NCBI RefSeq assembly: GCF_025490915.1
Contig: NZ_JANQBA010000012.1
Span: 1-64,000, forward strand
Length of the DNA: 64,000 nt
Reading direction: 5' to 3'
DNA from: Lacticaseibacillus parakribbianus
Lineage (GTDB): Bacteria; Bacillota; Bacilli; Lactobacillales; Lactobacillaceae
Part shown: positions 4,818 through 36,565 of the stretch, in pieces
Layout: every line of letters begins with the position of its first letter
Numbering within the stretch: position 1 is the first letter of the stretch
Notes under the pieces: generated by a model
What the model was told of the DNA's origin: nothing
Seen by the model: the letters and a program-made list of their open reading frames with translations, nothing else
Databases searched by the model: none
Translations under genes and position numbers: made by a program

Positions 4818-7800
4818 CAGTCACGTATCCCCTTTCTGCCGTTTTCGATATGCTGCTGTCTTGCCATCTCTACCTTGAGCACTGGCGCCATCTCTTTGGC
4901 CATCTGGCGTTTATCCAGATATGCGTTGAAATGGGCCTCGATGGTCTCGGTAATACCATTGCTGACCAACGTGGTCATCAGCTCGATGAGTTGGTCGAGC
5001 TGTGCGCTCACGCCACTCCCGCCGCTCTCGCCAATGCCGTCACGTGCCGCCATAGCAGCGGCCGTCTTGCCGAGCATCTCATAACCTCGAGACCGTTTAA
5101 CCGCAGACAGCGGCACAGCAGCTTCTACGCCAGCCTCGCCGAAGATGCTCGGTGTGCTGGCAAAGCCGCCGTTGGCGTAGCCCAGTGGGCCACTGACGCG
5201 GGCGAACATTGACGGGCCGGAGCCGTACCGCGACTTGGCGTAGTGGATTCCGGCCAGCAGGTCGTCGTAGCCGTTCTGGATGTTACCGTGGCCCGGGAAC
5301 TTGTACGCGTTGAAGGTCGGCATGATGGTCTGGACAAGCCCCATCGAAGGCACGCCCGCCTTGGCGTTGCTATCCCACAAGTTGATGGCGTGTGGATTGC
5401 CGCCGGACTCACGCTGGATGACACGCAGCCAGGCGCTGACTTGGCTTGCTGTAGCGTCGAAGCCGTTGGCCTTCAAGGCCTTGATGACACTTGGCTTCCA
5501 CCGTGTGACACCAGAGCCTGTCGGGTTTGCCGGGGATAGCATGTCCTCGACCGCCTTAAGCTTTGACTTCATCCAGGAGCTGACGCCACTTGCCATCTTG
5601 CTGACGACACCCTTGCCCAGTTCTGTGTAGGTGCTGGTTATTGCAGTCAGGCCACTGGTGTACTTGGCGAGCAGATTCTCGACATTCTTGATTGGATGCG
5701 CCAGCCAGTCGGTCACAGCTTCGAGCTTGTCGCCCACACCGTTGAAGAAGCTACCAATAGCGCCGACCCAACCGCCCTTGGCGTAGTGCTCAATGCCTGC
5801 CGCGGACATGAGGCTCTTGGTCTCGCGGCCGTTGTAGACGCGCGTGCCTTCAGGGAGCGCAGTGACCGCGTTGCGGCCATGCAGCATCCCCATTGCTCCG
5901 TTTGGAAGCTGAAAGAGTTCCTTCCAGTCCGGGCCTGGGCCGTCGTTGACCATGACCATGTGCATCTTGCCGACGATGCCGCCTTGGGCGAGCTTTTGAA
6001 TCTTGCCTAAGGCGTTCTTTCCAGTGAACTTGCGCCACAGCCAGTTGATGCCGCCGATAGCGCCGTTGACGATGCCGATCAGGGAGTTCATGCCCTTCTT
6101 GGCGTCAATTGCGATACCGGAGAAGATGGAGCTGAAGAAGGTGCTGATGCCATTCCAGGTGGACTTCCAGCCCTTGGAGAACTTAGTGCTCCAGCGACTG
6201 CGCCAGGACTCGACCTTGTCGCCCCAGTCGGACGCCTTGCTCTTAGCAGAGTCGAGGTAGTCGGACATGCTGCCCTTGAAGTACTTCCAACCCGACTTCC
6301 AGTTTTTCCCGAAGTTGGTCTTCCACTTGCTCCACCAGGTCGAGACGTTCTCGCCCCAGTCACTGACGCTTGTCTTGGCCTTCTTCAGGTTATCCTTGGT
6401 GCCGTCGGCGAAGCTCTTCCAACCGTTTTTCCAGTTCTTGCCGAAGCCCTTCTTCCACTTGCTCCACCACTTGGCGGTGCTGTCACCCCAGTCGGATGCG
6501 GACTCTTTGACTCCATCGAAGTTGTCAGATGCGGTCTTTTTGAAGGACTTCCACTTCTTTGACCAGGATTTGTCCTGGGCCTTACCCCACTTCGAGATTT
6601 TGGACTTCACGCCATCCAACTGTTTGCCGATGGCCTCGTTGAGGCCCATGGTGCGGGCGTCCTTCTCGAATCCGCCAAGCCACTTGCCGAAGGACTTCTT
6701 GGTCGACTTAAAGGTCTTATCGAGCCCGGTCTTCACATCGTCGAATTTATCGGTGATGTTGGTCTTGACCTTGTTAACGCCGGCTTTGGCATCTTTACTG
6801 GTCTTGTCTAGCCATGACTTGGTTCCTTTGCGCACGCCGCTCCAAAAGTCGTCCCAAGCCTTTTGCTGCTTCTTGTTGGCGGCCTTCTGCTTCTTCTCCA
6901 TTTTGGCTTGTGCCTTCTGGTTTTCCTTCTGGATCTTATCCCACCATTTTTTGATGCCGCTGACACCCTTGTGCGCGTCATAGCCGAGCTTGCCGAGCCA
7001 GTCATCGGGCTTCTTGCCCTTGACTTTATCCCAGCCACTCATGAAGCCCTTAGCGGCGGTGCCGCCCCGCTTGCCGGCTACACCGCCAATTGCTGCGCCG
7101 AGCGCCGCGCCCATCGGGCCGCCGAAGGCCAGACCAATGCCGCCGCCCAGTGCCTTGCCGATGCCGGATCCGGCATCCTGGTACTTGGCCTTGCTGTCCG
7201 TGTCCGTGAAGGCCTTATAGATGTCCAAACCCGCGTCAATGCCGACACCTACGCCAGCGGCGCCCGTGGCAACCTTCCCGAGCTTAGTCATCTGCGACCA
7301 GCCACCAGCGCCCTTGACAGTGCTGAGGGCGCCACCAAAGGAATTGCCAGACAGTGCATTGCTAGTGACGTTCTTGATGGTGCTACCGACGCCAGTGGCG
7401 AGTTTACTACCAGCGATGGCCTTGAGGGTCGAGTACACGCCTTTCAGCGCCTTGCCGAAGGTGAGCACCTTGCTGGTCATCCAGAGACCGGCGAGCACAC
7501 CGCCGAAGGCCTTGACGCCGTCGCGGTGCTTCACCATCCAGTCGAGGATGGCGTGGATCTCTTGGAGCGGGTCCTTGGCCTTCTTGCCGTTCTTGCCCGT
7601 GACGCCGAGCAGGTCGCCAACGGTCTTGAGCGTGCTCTTGAAGACATCCCAAGCGCCGCCCGTGATGAGCTTTACGATTTGCCAAGTGTCGCCGGCGATG
7701 CCCTTGATGTCCTTGGCGTGCTTGGCCAGGTAGTCGAAGGTGCCGGAGATGGTCTTCTGCAGACCCTCCAGACCGCGGTTGAGATAGGACACCAGGCTTG

Positions 7801-33003: not shown

Positions 33004-33672
33004 ATGTCAGACTTAGGAAATAAAGCAATCTTCGGCAAGAACCTAACCGAAATGATGAATCAGAGGAAAATGTCGGTGACTGACTTGGCTTCTGCCCTTG
33101 GCTTCAGCACCTCAACCGTGTGGGACTGGGCGAACGGAAAGACCTACCCACGTATTGATAAGATTGAAATGATGGCCAATTATTTTGGCGTTAAGAAGTC
33201 AGCACTGGTTGAGCACCACGATAACGGTGTTCCTCTACCAATCCACACCTACCCATACATCCCCGCCGCCATCTCTGCTGGTACGCCAACCGAGGTTGAA
33301 GCCATCACCCCAGACCAGCTGGAACAGGTCGCCATTCCAGACGCGGTCATGGGCAAGTGGGCCGGTCACACCGACGTCACGCTCATGCGAGCCAATGGCG
33401 ATAGCATGAACCGCGTGATTCCGAACGGATCGCTGATCGGCGTACGCGGCGTTGACGACCCGGCAGACCTCAAGGACGGTGACATCGTGGTCTTCGACTG
33501 TGATGGTGAGTATGCCGTCAAGCGGTTCTTCAATGACCGCACGGGCCGCGCGTACATCTTCCAGCCCGACTCAAGTAAGCCTGGGTTCGCACCGATTGTT
33601 CGCCGGTACGACGATCCAGACCTCACAAACATCGTCGGCAAGGTCGTCCTCTACGTGGTCGAACTCGCCTAG
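33004..33672 (+). CDS. CI-like repressor with LexA-type (S24) autocleavage domain
   Basis: 222 residues from ATG 33004 (MSDLGNKAIFGKNLTEMMNQ) after AGAGGTG. Residues about 10-65 are an XRE helix-turn-helix (SVTDLASALGFSTSTVWDWA). The C-terminal S24 domain has the cleavage site Ala92-Gly93 (SAGTP), Ser134 (NGDSMNR) and Lys173 (YAVKRFF). The repressor keeps the prophage silent and is inactivated by RecA filaments after DNA damage. It opens the plus-strand lysogeny operon. Confidence 0.94.
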   Translation: MSDLGNKAIFGKNLTEMMNQRKMSVTDLASALGFSTSTVWDWANGKTYPRIDKIEMMANYFGVKKSALVEHHDNGVPLPIHTYPYIPAAISAGTPTEVEAITPDQLEQVAIPDAVMGKWAGHTDVTLMRANGDSMNRVIPNGSLIGVRGVDDPADLKDGDIVVFDCDGEYAVKRFFNDRTGRAYIFQPDSSKPGFAPIVRRYDDPDLTNIVGKVVLYVVELA

Positions 33673-33738
33673 CCCACTCCAGCGGCAGGCCCGTGCAAGC
33701 CGGGCCGTGTGGCTTACGTCCAGCCCGGATCGACGTAA
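33671..33738 (+). ncRNA. Structured RNA element, copy 1
   Basis: It begins in the cI stop codon. P1: AGCCCAC (33671-33677) with GTG-T-GGCT (33707-33714). Joining TCCAGCGGCA. P2: GGCCCG / CGGGCC with loop TGCAAGC (33694-33700). P3: TACGTC / GACGTA with loop CAGCCCGGATC (33721-33731). A second copy at 34145-34210 shares joining, loops and lengths but has different stem bases that still pair. Five stem positions show compensating changes. Function unknown. Confidence 0.65.
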
Positions 33739-33765
33739 AAAGCTGTGGAGTTAGGGGAACATAGT

Positions 33766-34137
33766 ATGAAAGTAACAAAGCTGATTGTGGGTATTCTTCA
33801 GATTGTCTTGTCCTTGTTTATTCTGCTTCAGTCTTGTGCAGTTGGGCTTGGCCACGCCGTCGAAAACAAGACGTCAGATGCTGGCGGCTCAGCGGGCGTA
33901 TTCGTCGCCATTCTGTTTTTGGCCGCCGGCATCACCTACATCGCTACACGCAAAATGGTGAAGCTTGGCGGTGACATTGCTGGTCTCGTTCTGATGGCAA
34001 TCGCATGGATTTTCGGCATCTCAAACGCTGCCGACTACTCTGATCTCGCTATCTGGGGCTGGCTGTCCTTGATCATCGGTGTTGGCTTCTTCGTCTGGCA
34101 CCTACTGGCAAACCGAAAGGCAGCAAAGGCTGAGTAG
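33766..34137 (+). CDS. Four-helix membrane protein of the lysogeny module
   Basis: 123 residues from ATG 33766 (MKVTKLIVGILQIVLSLFIL) after AGGGGAA. Four hydrophobic segments: residues 4-25, 45-62, 68-85 and 93-113. Between the CI-like repressor and the HEPN-like gene and on the same strand, so expressed in the lysogen. Superinfection exclusion is a common role for such genes but nothing in the sequence proves it. Confidence 0.75.
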   Translation: MKVTKLIVGILQIVLSLFILLQSCAVGLGHAVENKTSDAGGSAGVFVAILFLAAGITYIATRKMVKLGGDIAGLVLMAIAWIFGISNAADYSDLAIWGWLSLIIGVGFFVWHLLANRKAAKAE

Positions 34138-34144
34138 CTGCTAG

Positions 34145-34210
34145 AAGCCTTCTCTAGCGGCGGACGTGTGCGAGCCACGTCGAAGGCTTATGTCCAGCCC
34201 GGATTGACGT
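34145..34210 (+). ncRNA. Structured RNA element, copy 2
   Basis: P1: AAGCCTTC (34145-34152) with GAAGGCTT (34182-34189). Joining TCTAGCGGCG. P2: GACGTG / CACGTC with loop TGCGAGC (34069+ pattern at 34169-34175). P3: ATGTC / GACGT with loop CAGCCCGGATT. Same order, stem lengths and loop lengths as copy 1. It lies after the stop of the membrane protein gene and before the ribosome binding site of the HEPN-like gene. Confidence 0.65.
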
Positions 34211-34225
34211 TAGGCAAAATAAAAA

Positions 34226-34240
34226 GCCCTCGGTGAGGGC
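34226..34240 (+). promoter_or_regulatory. Hairpin in front of HEPN-like gene
   Basis: GCCCTC-GGT-GAGGGC sits immediately before the ribosome binding site GGGAGG (34241-34246). It could limit or pace translation initiation of the downstream gene. Confidence 0.4.
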
Positions 34241-34252
34241 GGGAGGAAATGC

Positions 34253-35092
34253 ATGATAGAGTATGAAACTATTTGCCCAGAGTGCCTGACTCAAAGCCGA
34301 AACTCCAGCAGCGGGCGCATCCAGATTTCCCTAATGATGGGGAGTATAACGGATGCCGACTTTGTTGAGGCTAAGTGTCAAAACGGCCACACGATAAACA
34401 TTTTCCCGCGTGAAGGTAAGTACAACTTCATCTTAGCTCACGCCTTTAGAGCTTTTCAGTCCAACCAGTTCTACGAAGCCGCTGCATCGGGCTATGCGGC
34501 ACTTGAAGACTTCATGAAAGTGTATATTCAGGCAAGCACTTGGGTAGCAATGAATCAGCCTGAAGATGTGAAGAAGCTCTACGAGGATGTTAGCTCGAAC
34601 AAACTGCTGATGGGCAACTCTACGCGAATCATTGGAGCCTATGCCTATCTCTATCAGACGAATACTGGCACCGTTATTACCCCGAGTGAGTTTGAAAAGA
34701 TGTCGCACATCAGAGACGACATAATTCACGCCGTCAAACTACCGAAGAGGAATGATGTTGAAAAGCTGCTAGTGTCAATCTACAAGCACCTCGCGATTGC
34801 GTCGATCAGGTGGACTCATTCACCCAAAAAGGGTAACCCGCTGCTACAACAATGGATTCCCGACTACAAAATGCAGCTAGCAATTGCATCATTGAAAACA
34901 TCCGGTATGGCTTCCAAAGATGTACAGGGGAGCATCAACCAACTTAGTCAGTCGACCACTCTCTTCTTACCCGAGACGCTCTTTTTCGACAACGTCGATG
35001 CGCGTAATTCCGAGATTGAAGCCATTTCTACTGGATATAAGGACGCTACTGTCATTGCCAAAATGATTCCAGACCTACAAGCATATGCTTAG
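34253..35092 (+). CDS. HEPN-like protein with N-terminal zinc finger, candidate defence gene
   Basis: 279 residues from ATG 34253 (MIEYETICPECLTQSRNSSS). Residues 8-50 hold CPEC and AKCQNGH, a probable zinc-binding unit. The helical middle region contains MSHIRDDIIHAVKLP (about 156-170), an RxxxxH motif typical of HEPN ribonuclease-type domains, preceded by long helices (FRAFQSNQFYEAAASGYAAL). Location in the lysogeny module next to cI suits an abortive-infection or exclusion gene. The RNase activity is inference from the motif alone. Confidence 0.65.
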   Translation: MIEYETICPECLTQSRNSSSGRIQISLMMGSITDADFVEAKCQNGHTINIFPREGKYNFILAHAFRAFQSNQFYEAAASGYAALEDFMKVYIQASTWVAMNQPEDVKKLYEDVSSNKLLMGNSTRIIGAYAYLYQTNTGTVITPSEFEKMSHIRDDIIHAVKLPKRNDVEKLLVSIYKHLAIASIRWTHSPKKGNPLLQQWIPDYKMQLAIASLKTSGMASKDVQGSINQLSQSTTLFLPETLFFDNVDARNSEIEAISTGYKDATVIAKMIPDLQAYA

Positions 35093-35347: not shown

Positions 35348-35407
35348 AAGCAAACAACACTATCAGTGCGCTCTTTGCGTACTCCAGTATAGCACATGGA
35401 GGAAATC

Positions 35408-36565
35408 ATGGCATCAATCGAAAAACGTGGTAAGACGTACGGCTACCGCATTCGCTACAAGACCGTGGACGGCGTGTGGCGTGAAAAGTCTAAGGGCGGG
35501 TTCCGCACGAAGAAACTGGCAGAAGCAGCTGCGGCGGAAGTCGAGCACGACAAGCGCTCTGGTGCTGACCTGTCCGATGTGACGCTGCTTGCCTACTATG
35601 ATCGGTGGCTTGCCACCTTCAAGGCTGGTAAGCACTCACAAATTACCGAGGCCAGGTACGCTACTATCCGCAAAGCACTGGCGGAGTATTTCGGCAGCGA
35701 CCAGCCGCTTAAAGAGATAACGCGCACGGCGTGGCAGACCTTCATCAACACCTATGCCGCAGGGACCGTCGTGCCGCGCAACGCCAAGCAACCTAAGCCA
35801 CGGTCGCGTGATACCGTGTCCAAGCTGAACGGCTACATCAAGGCTATGTGTGATGATGCTATCGCTGACCGTATTCTGACTGCGAACTTTGCAGCCCGGG
35901 TGGTCAACCCTGGCGCCGCCGCCAAAGCAAGTGACTTGAAGTTCCTTGAGCTTGACGAGTTCTCCGCTCTGCTCGCCTACTGCCGCGAGCACGCCAAGCT
36001 GTCGAGTATGTACTTGTATTGCATTGCTGCTGCCATTCTCACCGGGTGTCGAGCCTCCGAGCTGATTGCGCTCCAGTGGGCCGACGTAGATCTAGACGCT
36101 CGCATCATCCACGTCACGAAGTCATGGGATTACGTGTACGGCACGGGATTCAAGCCCACTAAGACCCCTTCTGGCGTGCGAGACATCGACATACCGGGTG
36201 AGCTGGCGGTGATGCTCCAGAAGCTCCACGGCGAGCAGGCAGCGGCCAACCTGCGTACCGGCTACCGCGACGAGCTAGACATGGTCTTCCGCAACAATCG
36301 CCACCAAGTGCCGAGCGACTACGCGCTGAACCACGGACTCAAGCGTGTGGAGGACAAGCTCGGCTTCCCGTCGCCTGTCACCTTCCACGGGCTCCGGCAC
36401 ACCCACGTGAGCTACCTGCTCGCCAAGGGCGTTGACATCGCCTATATCTCCAGACGGCTCGGTCACTCGGATATCACGATCACGCTTCGGGTGTACCAGC
36501 ATTTGTTGAAGGCCCACGAGCAGGAACAAGCACAAGCGGCGGTAAAAGCACTGTCTGCGCTGTGA
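35408..36565 (+). CDS. int: Tyrosine integrase
   Basis: 385 residues from ATG 35408 (MASIEKRGKTYGYRIRYKTV), preceded by GGAGGAAATC; an ATG at 35396 lacks a ribosome binding site. Domains: N-terminal arm-binding (AP2-like) residues 1-60, SAM-like core-binding 60-160, catalytic 180-385. Catalytic residues: Arg in TGCRASEL (about 214), HGLRHTH (about 327-333) and Tyr in LRVYQHL (about 363). Last phage gene, reading outward to the attachment site. Two arm-type repeats follow its stop. Confidence 0.95.
   Translation: MASIEKRGKTYGYRIRYKTVDGVWREKSKGGFRTKKLAEAAAAEVEHDKRSGADLSDVTLLAYYDRWLATFKAGKHSQITEARYATIRKALAEYFGSDQPLKEITRTAWQTFINTYAAGTVVPRNAKQPKPRSRDTVSKLNGYIKAMCDDAIADRILTANFAARVVNPGAAAKASDLKFLELDEFSALLAYCREHAKLSSMYLYCIAAAILTGCRASELIALQWADVDLDARIIHVTKSWDYVYGTGFKPTKTPSGVRDIDIPGELAVMLQKLHGEQAAANLRTGYRDELDMVFRNNRHQVPSDYALNHGLKRVEDKLGFPSPVTFHGLRHTHVSYLLAKGVDIAYISRRLGHSDITITLRVYQHLLKAHEQEQAQAAVKALSAL

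Follow-up and report, generated by a model that had tools for sequence, protein, structure and literature searches.

Behind two consecutive genes of a phage lysogeny module in Lacticaseibacillus parakribbianus, the same compact sequence plan occurs twice, which raises the question of what kind of RNA it specifies and what it might do at the end of a gene. The window, that is, the whole stretch of 64,000 nucleotides that was analysed (contig NZ_JANQBA010000012.1, positions 1 to 64,000), carries on its + strand a cI-type repressor gene (33004-33672, HTH and Peptidase_S24), a small gene that is a membrane protein by eye (33766-34137), a further gene of the lysogeny module (34253-35092) and, at the end of the module, a phage integrase gene (35396-36565). 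The small gene and the one following it match phrog_9418 and phrog_19381, respectively, both of unknown function, and neither has a Pfam match. The first-pass annotation had described, after the cI and membrane-protein genes, two copies of one three-stem RNA (P1, P2 and P3) belonging to the lysogeny module, with compensating changes in the stems. Both copies are present with that plan, at 33671-33738 and 34145-34210, and comparative evidence confirms a genuine structured RNA; each copy consists of two separable modules, called here A (P1 and P2) and B (P3).

Module A is about 42 nt long, with a P1 of 6-7 bp, a bulge of 9-10 nt (NCYAGCGGCR), a P2 of 5 bp plus an invariant G-C pair, and the loop UGCRAGC. 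The P2 originally drawn with 6 bp does pair, and is better described as five base pairs plus the invariant G-C closing the 7-nt loop. Copy 1 (33672-33714, + strand), a putative tRNA-elbow mimic, overlaps the cI stop codon TAG (33670-33672); its P1 is GCCCAC/GTG-T-GGC (33672-33677 with 33707-33713, with one bulged U, U33710), followed by the D-loop-like bulge (33678-33687), the T-stem-like P2 GGCCC/GGGCC (33688-33692 with 33702-33706, plus G33693-C33701) and the loop GTGCAAGCC (33693-33701, the T-loop-like part being 33694-33700). Copy 2 (34145-34189, + strand) begins 7 nt past the stop codon TAG of the membrane-protein gene (34135-34137), the location at stop codons being as previously claimed, and has the P1 AAGCCTTC/GAAGGCTT (34145-34152 with 34182-34189), the bulge at 34153-34162, the P2 GACGT/ACGTC (34163-34167 with 34177-34181, plus G34168-C34176) and the loop GTGCGAGCC (34168-34176). 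The first copy of module B (33715-33745, + strand) is the hairpin TACGTC/GACGTA with the loop CAGCCCGGATC, followed by AAAAGCTG, with the next start codon 20 nt downstream, and the second (34190-34210, + strand) is ATGTC/GACGT with the loop CAGCCCGGATT, lacking the AAAAGCTG tail; the P3 hairpins themselves span 33715-33737 and 34190-34210. On the opposite strand, a terminator-like hairpin with a T-run lies at 34226-34240, between the second module B and the next gene; the region has five such minus-strand sites, a number close to that obtained from shuffles.

Single-sequence folding gave z values of -0.64 and +0.18 for the two copies in 70-nt windows and of -2.64 and -0.82 in longer ones; for neither copy does the minimum-energy fold contain the complete P1/P2 structure proposed. 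As energy folding of single copies is mixed, the case for the structure of module A rests on comparison. A covariance model trained on ten sequences, copy 2 among them and copy 1 left out, gave copy 1 a score of 48.6 bits (E 1.4e-9, filters off), compared to 13.4 bits for its runner-up place within 20 kb.

Searches of phage and Lactobacillaceae genomes with letter patterns and covariance models, the latter as the first-pass annotation had proposed, did bring further elements with covariation, and in these the two modules mostly occur apart: a B hairpin lies within 40 nt downstream of 5 of 87 distinct A elements, and an A element precedes 5 of 115 distinct B elements. Phages PLE2 and R23.9 have A without B behind it, and R23.9 and R3.3 have B without A before it. 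Because of this separate occurrence, A and B are treated separately, and the reading of P1, P2 and P3 as one RNA is rejected. Membership of the lysogeny module is not supported either, as A is also found between genes that are tail-like by eye, and a second branch of elements, described below, lies between early genes of unrelated phages. A further pairing considered, between AAGCC in the loop and a 3' GGCTT after P1', fits the Lacticaseibacillus copies and was discarded on failing in others.

Module B follows the pattern GTCCAR-N2-6-KGAYNGAC plus AAAAGCTG, with a fourth stem pair that varies between C-G, U-A and A-U. It usually stands without module A, ahead of ribosome binding sites, and its distance to the start codon downstream is most often 21-34 nt. 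A search at E up to 1 found it in 46 phage records, mostly from Lactobacillus and Lacticaseibacillus; a single Lactococcus phage and a single Streptococcus phage are among them. A hydrophobic N-terminal segment is encoded by 25 of the 30 gene clusters downstream of B, versus 17% of 909 control ORFs. In phage A2, module B carries an annotation as a cI terminator. With examples in the window and in three further loci, it is abundant in Lactobacillales phages, as a 5'-UTR hairpin at the head of lysogeny-module genes. Two more B hairpins lie elsewhere in the host genome (C1:358207-358234 and C7:35146-35173), upstream of lipoprotein-like and membrane-protein-like genes, where the neighbours (response regulator, amino-acid permease and ClpP) are by eye chromosomal and not prophage.

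For module A, viral contigs were scanned with patterns fixing only bulge and loop letters and leaving the stems free, which gave 53 places, 45 of them distinct. P2 pairs at 5/5 positions in 23 of these places (22 distinct), at 4 in 7 and at 0-3 in 23, and an upstream ORF has its stop codon no more than 25 nt away in 16, 3 and 1 of them, respectively. By our own estimate, assuming even base use, two 5-nt strands pair fully at random in about 0.7% of cases, so that well under one perfect P2 would be expected among 45. The invariance of the bulge and loop letters is partly by construction, as the fetching patterns fix them. The alignment of 41 matches, which come from 34 sources and give 39 distinct rows, some of which had served for training, has 96.2% of its 419 cells paired, a percentage inflated by the alignment of the rows to the model, just as those of the ten-row and 52-row sets are inflated because the rows were picked for pairing stems. 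The covariation score of the 39 rows was 1.04, compared to at most 0.165 when the partner strand was slid; in shuffle controls on the same rows, the 11 pairs changed on both sides were reached in 87 of 500 shuffles, the pair types in 27 of 500 and the other three measures in 0 of 500. Related sequences among rows and elements, here and below, are not independent events.

A model built from ten A elements, R1, matched 11 of 301 genomes of the family (E up to 0.1), all from the window's own genus, of which the set lists 15 genomes; in the window's phylum, it matched 1 of 299, namely the own genome. A weak third match in the own genome, on C11, looks coding by eye and was set aside. A genome-wide pattern scan gave 11 matches, four of them in named Lacticaseibacillus species and with the structure by eye; the other seven, in other taxa, lack it by eye and were rejected. 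All named bacterial matches with the structure are thus Lacticaseibacillus. In four loci of Lacticaseibacillus prophages, A lies between genes that by eye resemble those for a major tail protein and a tail chaperone. Two near-identical A elements flank a 328-codon ORF in another locus (L316:5344-5388 and 6437-6481), each followed by the same hairpin, in a cassette-like arrangement. Comparing L260 with the window (33600-33715), as well as L237, L244 and L263 with L239, agreement runs through A and divergence sets in right after it, which reads in these sequences as gene exchange at the element boundary.

The entry point to the second branch was a pair of weak matches, in phage contigs also carrying A, that have the loop GTTCGAGCC of tRNA. 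Scanning with the pattern GGCAGGC-N5-8-GTTCGAGCC gave at least 120 stretches, and 128 places were read among the matches listed; P2 pairs at 5/5 positions in 68 of these, 62 of them with a P1 of at least 5 bp. At the commonest spacing, again among the matches listed and before any pairing filter, 62 of 77 distinct places have P2 at 5/5 and 58 have P1 at 5/5. For 52 of those 58 pairing places, also among the matches listed, the covariation score was 0.86, compared to at most 0.173 for slid versions. The loop of this branch is GTTCGAGNC, and R-C stands directly after P1' in 132 of 136 elements, resembling R73-C74 of tRNA. A 43-nt query against 50,697 phage records matched 131 at E up to 0.5 (113 from Streptomyces, 11 from Mycobacterium, 6 from Riemerella and one other) and 168 at E up to 10. 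In 50 listed of the 168, no feature is annotated under the matches, and in 60 listed of the 131, one match lies under a hypothetical protein.

R2, the covariance model for this branch, detects 159 elements within the 453 kb of the 51 loci that had been fetched for the branch or named, and none in 299 genomes of the window's phylum; on the window it does not find the copies, its best place being elsewhere at 15.0 bits. Reciprocally, R1 finds nothing on phages Papyrus and Joe and only partial matches on Hydra (E 0.16-0.2). Consequently, the two branches are linked not by model scores, being instead joined by shared contacts and by intermediate forms, which are six elements with an 11-nt bulge and the A/G combination described below. 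Module A is in this way a single branch of a wider family, whose members occur in Lacticaseibacillus, Streptomyces, Mycobacterium and environmental phages. Phage phiC31 has no elements. The Riemerella phages H160-H162, from another host group, have 28-nt stretches that match the core of the second branch, a possible further spread. In a phage contig carrying several elements (L353:6409-6496), ARAGORN reports a tRNA with a four-base anticodon.

The contacts shared by both branches connect the bulge and the loop. Across the 122 distinct elements that have the standard length, a standard pair between bulge column 17 and loop residue 60 is present without exception (GC 58, AU 51, CG 6, UA 4, GU 3). 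The mutual information is 1.26 bits for this contact, 1.07 bits for bulge columns 10 and 16, which covary with each other, and 0.32 bits for the next bulge-loop value. A wider script run on all loci, requiring the stems and the bulge GC and leaving loop residues 54, 55, 59 and 60 and the other bulge letters free, collected 163 distinct elements. In 161 of them, column 17, the third bulge base from the 3' end, pairs with residue 60 (GC 77, AU 71, CG 5, GU 4, UA 4); the bulge-internal pair 10-16, closing a mini-loop, is likewise formed in 161, and both occur together in 160. The counterpart of the tRNA 18/55 contact (bulge column 12 and loop residue 55) is G/U in 134, A/G in 27, and C/G and G/C in one each, with G/G and A/U absent among the 163. 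Of the 27 A/G elements, 21 belong to the window's branch and were fetched by patterns fixing those letters; the remaining six, found on five contigs, have the 11-nt bulge, and these letters played no part in their selection. The G of bulge column 13 and loop C56 were fixed by the search. G-U pairs are present in stems and contacts.

As described in the excerpt of PMC4810234, residue 18 of the tRNA elbow contacts Psi55 and residue 19 pairs with C56. The loops of both branches (G-UGCRAGC-C and G-UUCGAGN-C) follow the T-loop pattern G53-U54-N55-C56-R57-A58-N-N-C61, in which G53, C56 and C61 were fixed by the search pattern. The bulge, of 9-11 nt in most elements, has neither D-stem nor anticodon arm, and P1 runs gap-free from the 3' strand of P2, as in tRNA. 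Very probably, the loop represents a T-loop and the bulge a D-loop in minimal form, the two making up a tRNA-elbow mimic on an acceptor-like stem; the bulge-loop covariation bears out D/T-loop elbow mimicry at the level of sequences rather than of a three-dimensional structure. P1 has 6 bp in 35 of 53 A elements, which together with the 5+1 bp of P2 adds up to 12 bp between T-loop and 5' end; the other A elements range from 10 to 14 bp, and the second branch has 11. In tRNA this distance is 12 bp, according to the excerpt of PMC11143913. Some features speak against reading the elements as tRNA mimics: R-C is missing behind P1' in the window's copies, a CCA was not seen, the stack of the second branch measures 11 instead of 12 bp from the T-loop to the end of P1, and residues 59-60 pair with the bulge, unlike in tRNA. 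Moreover, neither ARAGORN nor the Rfam tRNA model (RF00005) gave a tRNA match overlapping A or second-branch elements in the loci examined, where tRNAs were found elsewhere.

In phages Hydra, Papyrus and Joe, which were chosen because of a BLAST query match, all 28 elements lie on the strand of the flanking genes and 25 lie wholly in annotated gaps. Within NC_042052:38000-50000 of Streptomyces phage Hydra, R2 places 10 elements, each of them on the gene strand and entirely inside an annotated gap; of the 11 gaps that are 80 nt or longer, 10 contain an element. Mycobacterium phage Papyrus (26 kb) has 10, all on the gene strand, eight wholly in gaps and two extending over the annotated start of the gene that follows. 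In Streptomyces phage Joe (19 kb) there are eight, all on the strand of the flanking genes, seven in gaps and one under a weak opposite ORF. Second-branch elements start 6-8 nt past a stop codon in 53 of 121 cases, with a median of 42 nt from P1' to the next start; these distances come from a simple ORF finder and have noisy tails. Module A stands 7 nt past a stop in 37 of 75 cases, many of them close relatives.

Taking the fold and its position together, module A is read here, with a probability of about 0.5, as a minimal tRNA mimic in phage mRNA that is predicted to be cut by RNase P and/or RNase Z, the structure being very likely and the processing role about even. P1 would serve as the acceptor stem and P2 with its closing G-C as the T-stem, with no nucleotide between their 3' strands, and the bulge of 9-11 nt would replace the D-arm, anticodon arm and variable loop, its D-loop-like strand docking into the T-loop. 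The polycistronic phage mRNA would then be cleaved by the host RNase P on the 5' side of P1, by RNase Z on the 3' side of P1' or by both, parting the cI message from the membrane-protein message and the latter from that of the next gene, so that each separated message would be translated and decay on its own. Module B would be a hairpin of its own in the 5' UTR of the gene behind it and might shield the new 5' end or regulate it, and in the second branch, a hairpin folded downstream would sit at the new 5' end, like module B in Lactobacillales. In favour of these enzymes, RNase P, RNase Z and CCA-adding enzymes grip the tRNA elbow (excerpts of PMC4810234 and PMC4919913), hairpins of acceptor and T-stem-loop are RNase P substrates (excerpt of PMC11143913) and other tRNA-like RNAs recruit RNase P (excerpt of PMC4810234). 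Further points against this reading are that cutting by RNase P alone would leave the upstream mRNA without a 3' structure, that neither branch's model finds the other branch at a significant score and that phiC31 carries no element. In its widest form, which we judge to fall somewhat short of even odds, the proposal is that phages of at least two bacterial phyla carry elbow mimics of about 40 nt as punctuation, in some genomes after nearly every gene followed by a gap, and that host RNase P and/or RNase Z cut the mRNA there into single-gene messages; the window would represent the Lacticaseibacillus branch, combined with a second conserved 5'-UTR hairpin heading lysogeny cassettes.

The main rival, to which a clearly smaller share of belief is given, is that A stays uncut and caps the 3' end of the upstream mRNA, its compact fold stopping 3'-to-5' exonucleases, or barring 5'-to-3' ones, and so stabilising the message. 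The position after stop codons would suit a cap, and so would phage R3.3, in which the homologue of the window's membrane gene (67.6% identical in DNA) has an intrinsic terminator, by eye, where the window has A, as though terminator and A were interchangeable 3' ends. However, a generic hairpin would suffice for such a cap, leaving the tRNA-specific contacts and the nearly constant R-C after P1' of the second branch unexplained. It is rather unlikely that A marks transcription termination or pausing, often with a following hairpin and without a U-tract; the stretch downstream of second-branch elements does fold with z below -2 in 24% of 136, versus 8% of upstream control stretches, but in the window there is no U-run after A and a terminator scan gave no + strand site between 32456 and 36669, and a terminator needs neither the conserved T-loop nor the D-loop-like strand.

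The remaining explanations are less probable still. That A and B act as DNA, marking cassette boundaries whose folded single strand serves a recombinase in exchanging lysogeny-module genes, would account for the different gene clusters flanking them (24 upstream and 27 downstream of A in 76 elements; 28 upstream and 37 downstream of B in 112) and for one genome, G277, in which the window's sequence from cI through the first A turns into a different sequence right after A. We hold this improbable, as DNA sites would have no need of the coding strand or of a place close to stop codons, shared intergenic sequence allows exchange without any special site, and stems and contacts include G-U pairs. 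No better is the chance that A acts as a decoy or recruiter of other elbow binders, such as the ribosome, the CCA-adding enzyme or tRNA-modifying enzymes, many cellular factors being known to bind the elbow (excerpt of PMC4810234); the regular occupation of the longer Hydra gaps fits a role in cis better. Slightly below these ranks a self-cleaving ribozyme, for instance a degenerate twister-sister, or a ligand-binding riboswitch. Twister-sister (RF02681) is the window's second Rfam match, around copy 1, and has the terminal loop GUGCAAGCC in common with it, a similarity that the T-loop motif explains; its 17.3 bits (E 0.69) are far under the gathering score of 34, and the strands of the internal loop do not align, GCAAGG being placed on GCCUAG and most of GCGCUCAU on a gap. 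Membership was accordingly rejected. Copy 2 had no twister-sister match in the Rfam search, and for a riboswitch no expression platform was seen.

The claim that the class is unrecognised stands in part, since in the window no Rfam 15 family matches at its gathering score (flpD, around copy 2, has 17.4 bits against 40), while the loop is now recognised as a T-loop and the bulge as a D-loop-like docking strand. In 26 further loci, Rfam 15 gave four matches, all tRNAs elsewhere in those loci and none at the elements. The class of structured RNA is real, apparently undescribed in the open-access literature searched, and without a matching Rfam 15 family. It would be a widespread phage RNA class that annotation misses, and would show DNA phages mimicking tRNA within their own mRNAs; if the cleavage mechanism is true, it would explain gene-by-gene mRNA levels in long phage operons, and should there be no cleavage, the coordinated switch at 18/55 and the additional pairs between bulge and loop would still amount to a new minimal elbow design.

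Compared to tRNA, the elements share the T-loop, the GG (or AG) docking strand, the seamless 3' strand from T-stem to acceptor stem and, in the second branch, R-C, and differ by the topology of the bulge. The tRNA-like domain of tmRNA presumably has the same T-loop and a docking strand resembling theirs. In mitochondria, tRNAs punctuate the transcript, being tRNA-shaped marks between genes that RNase P and RNase Z cut out; the working of the phage marks would be alike, although they are not tRNAs and their cutting is predicted. Viral tRNA-like structures, such as the TYMV TLS, and MALAT1-type RNAs are, like A, non-decoding RNAs with an elbow on an acceptor-like stack (excerpt of PMC4810234), and A would be placed beside the viral structures by its look rather than by demonstrated tRNA-enzyme action. 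It differs from those RNAs in being far smaller (about 42 nt), without D-stem, anticodon arm and CCA, in pairing its bulge with residues 59-60, and in occurring in up to ten or more copies per genome stretch inside the polycistronic mRNA of DNA phages. The closest architecture, nearly the same, is that of the RNase P model substrates, hairpins of acceptor stem, T-stem and T-loop such as AT1 (excerpt of PMC11143913); those were designed, whereas the A elements are natural and carry a docked D-loop-like strand.
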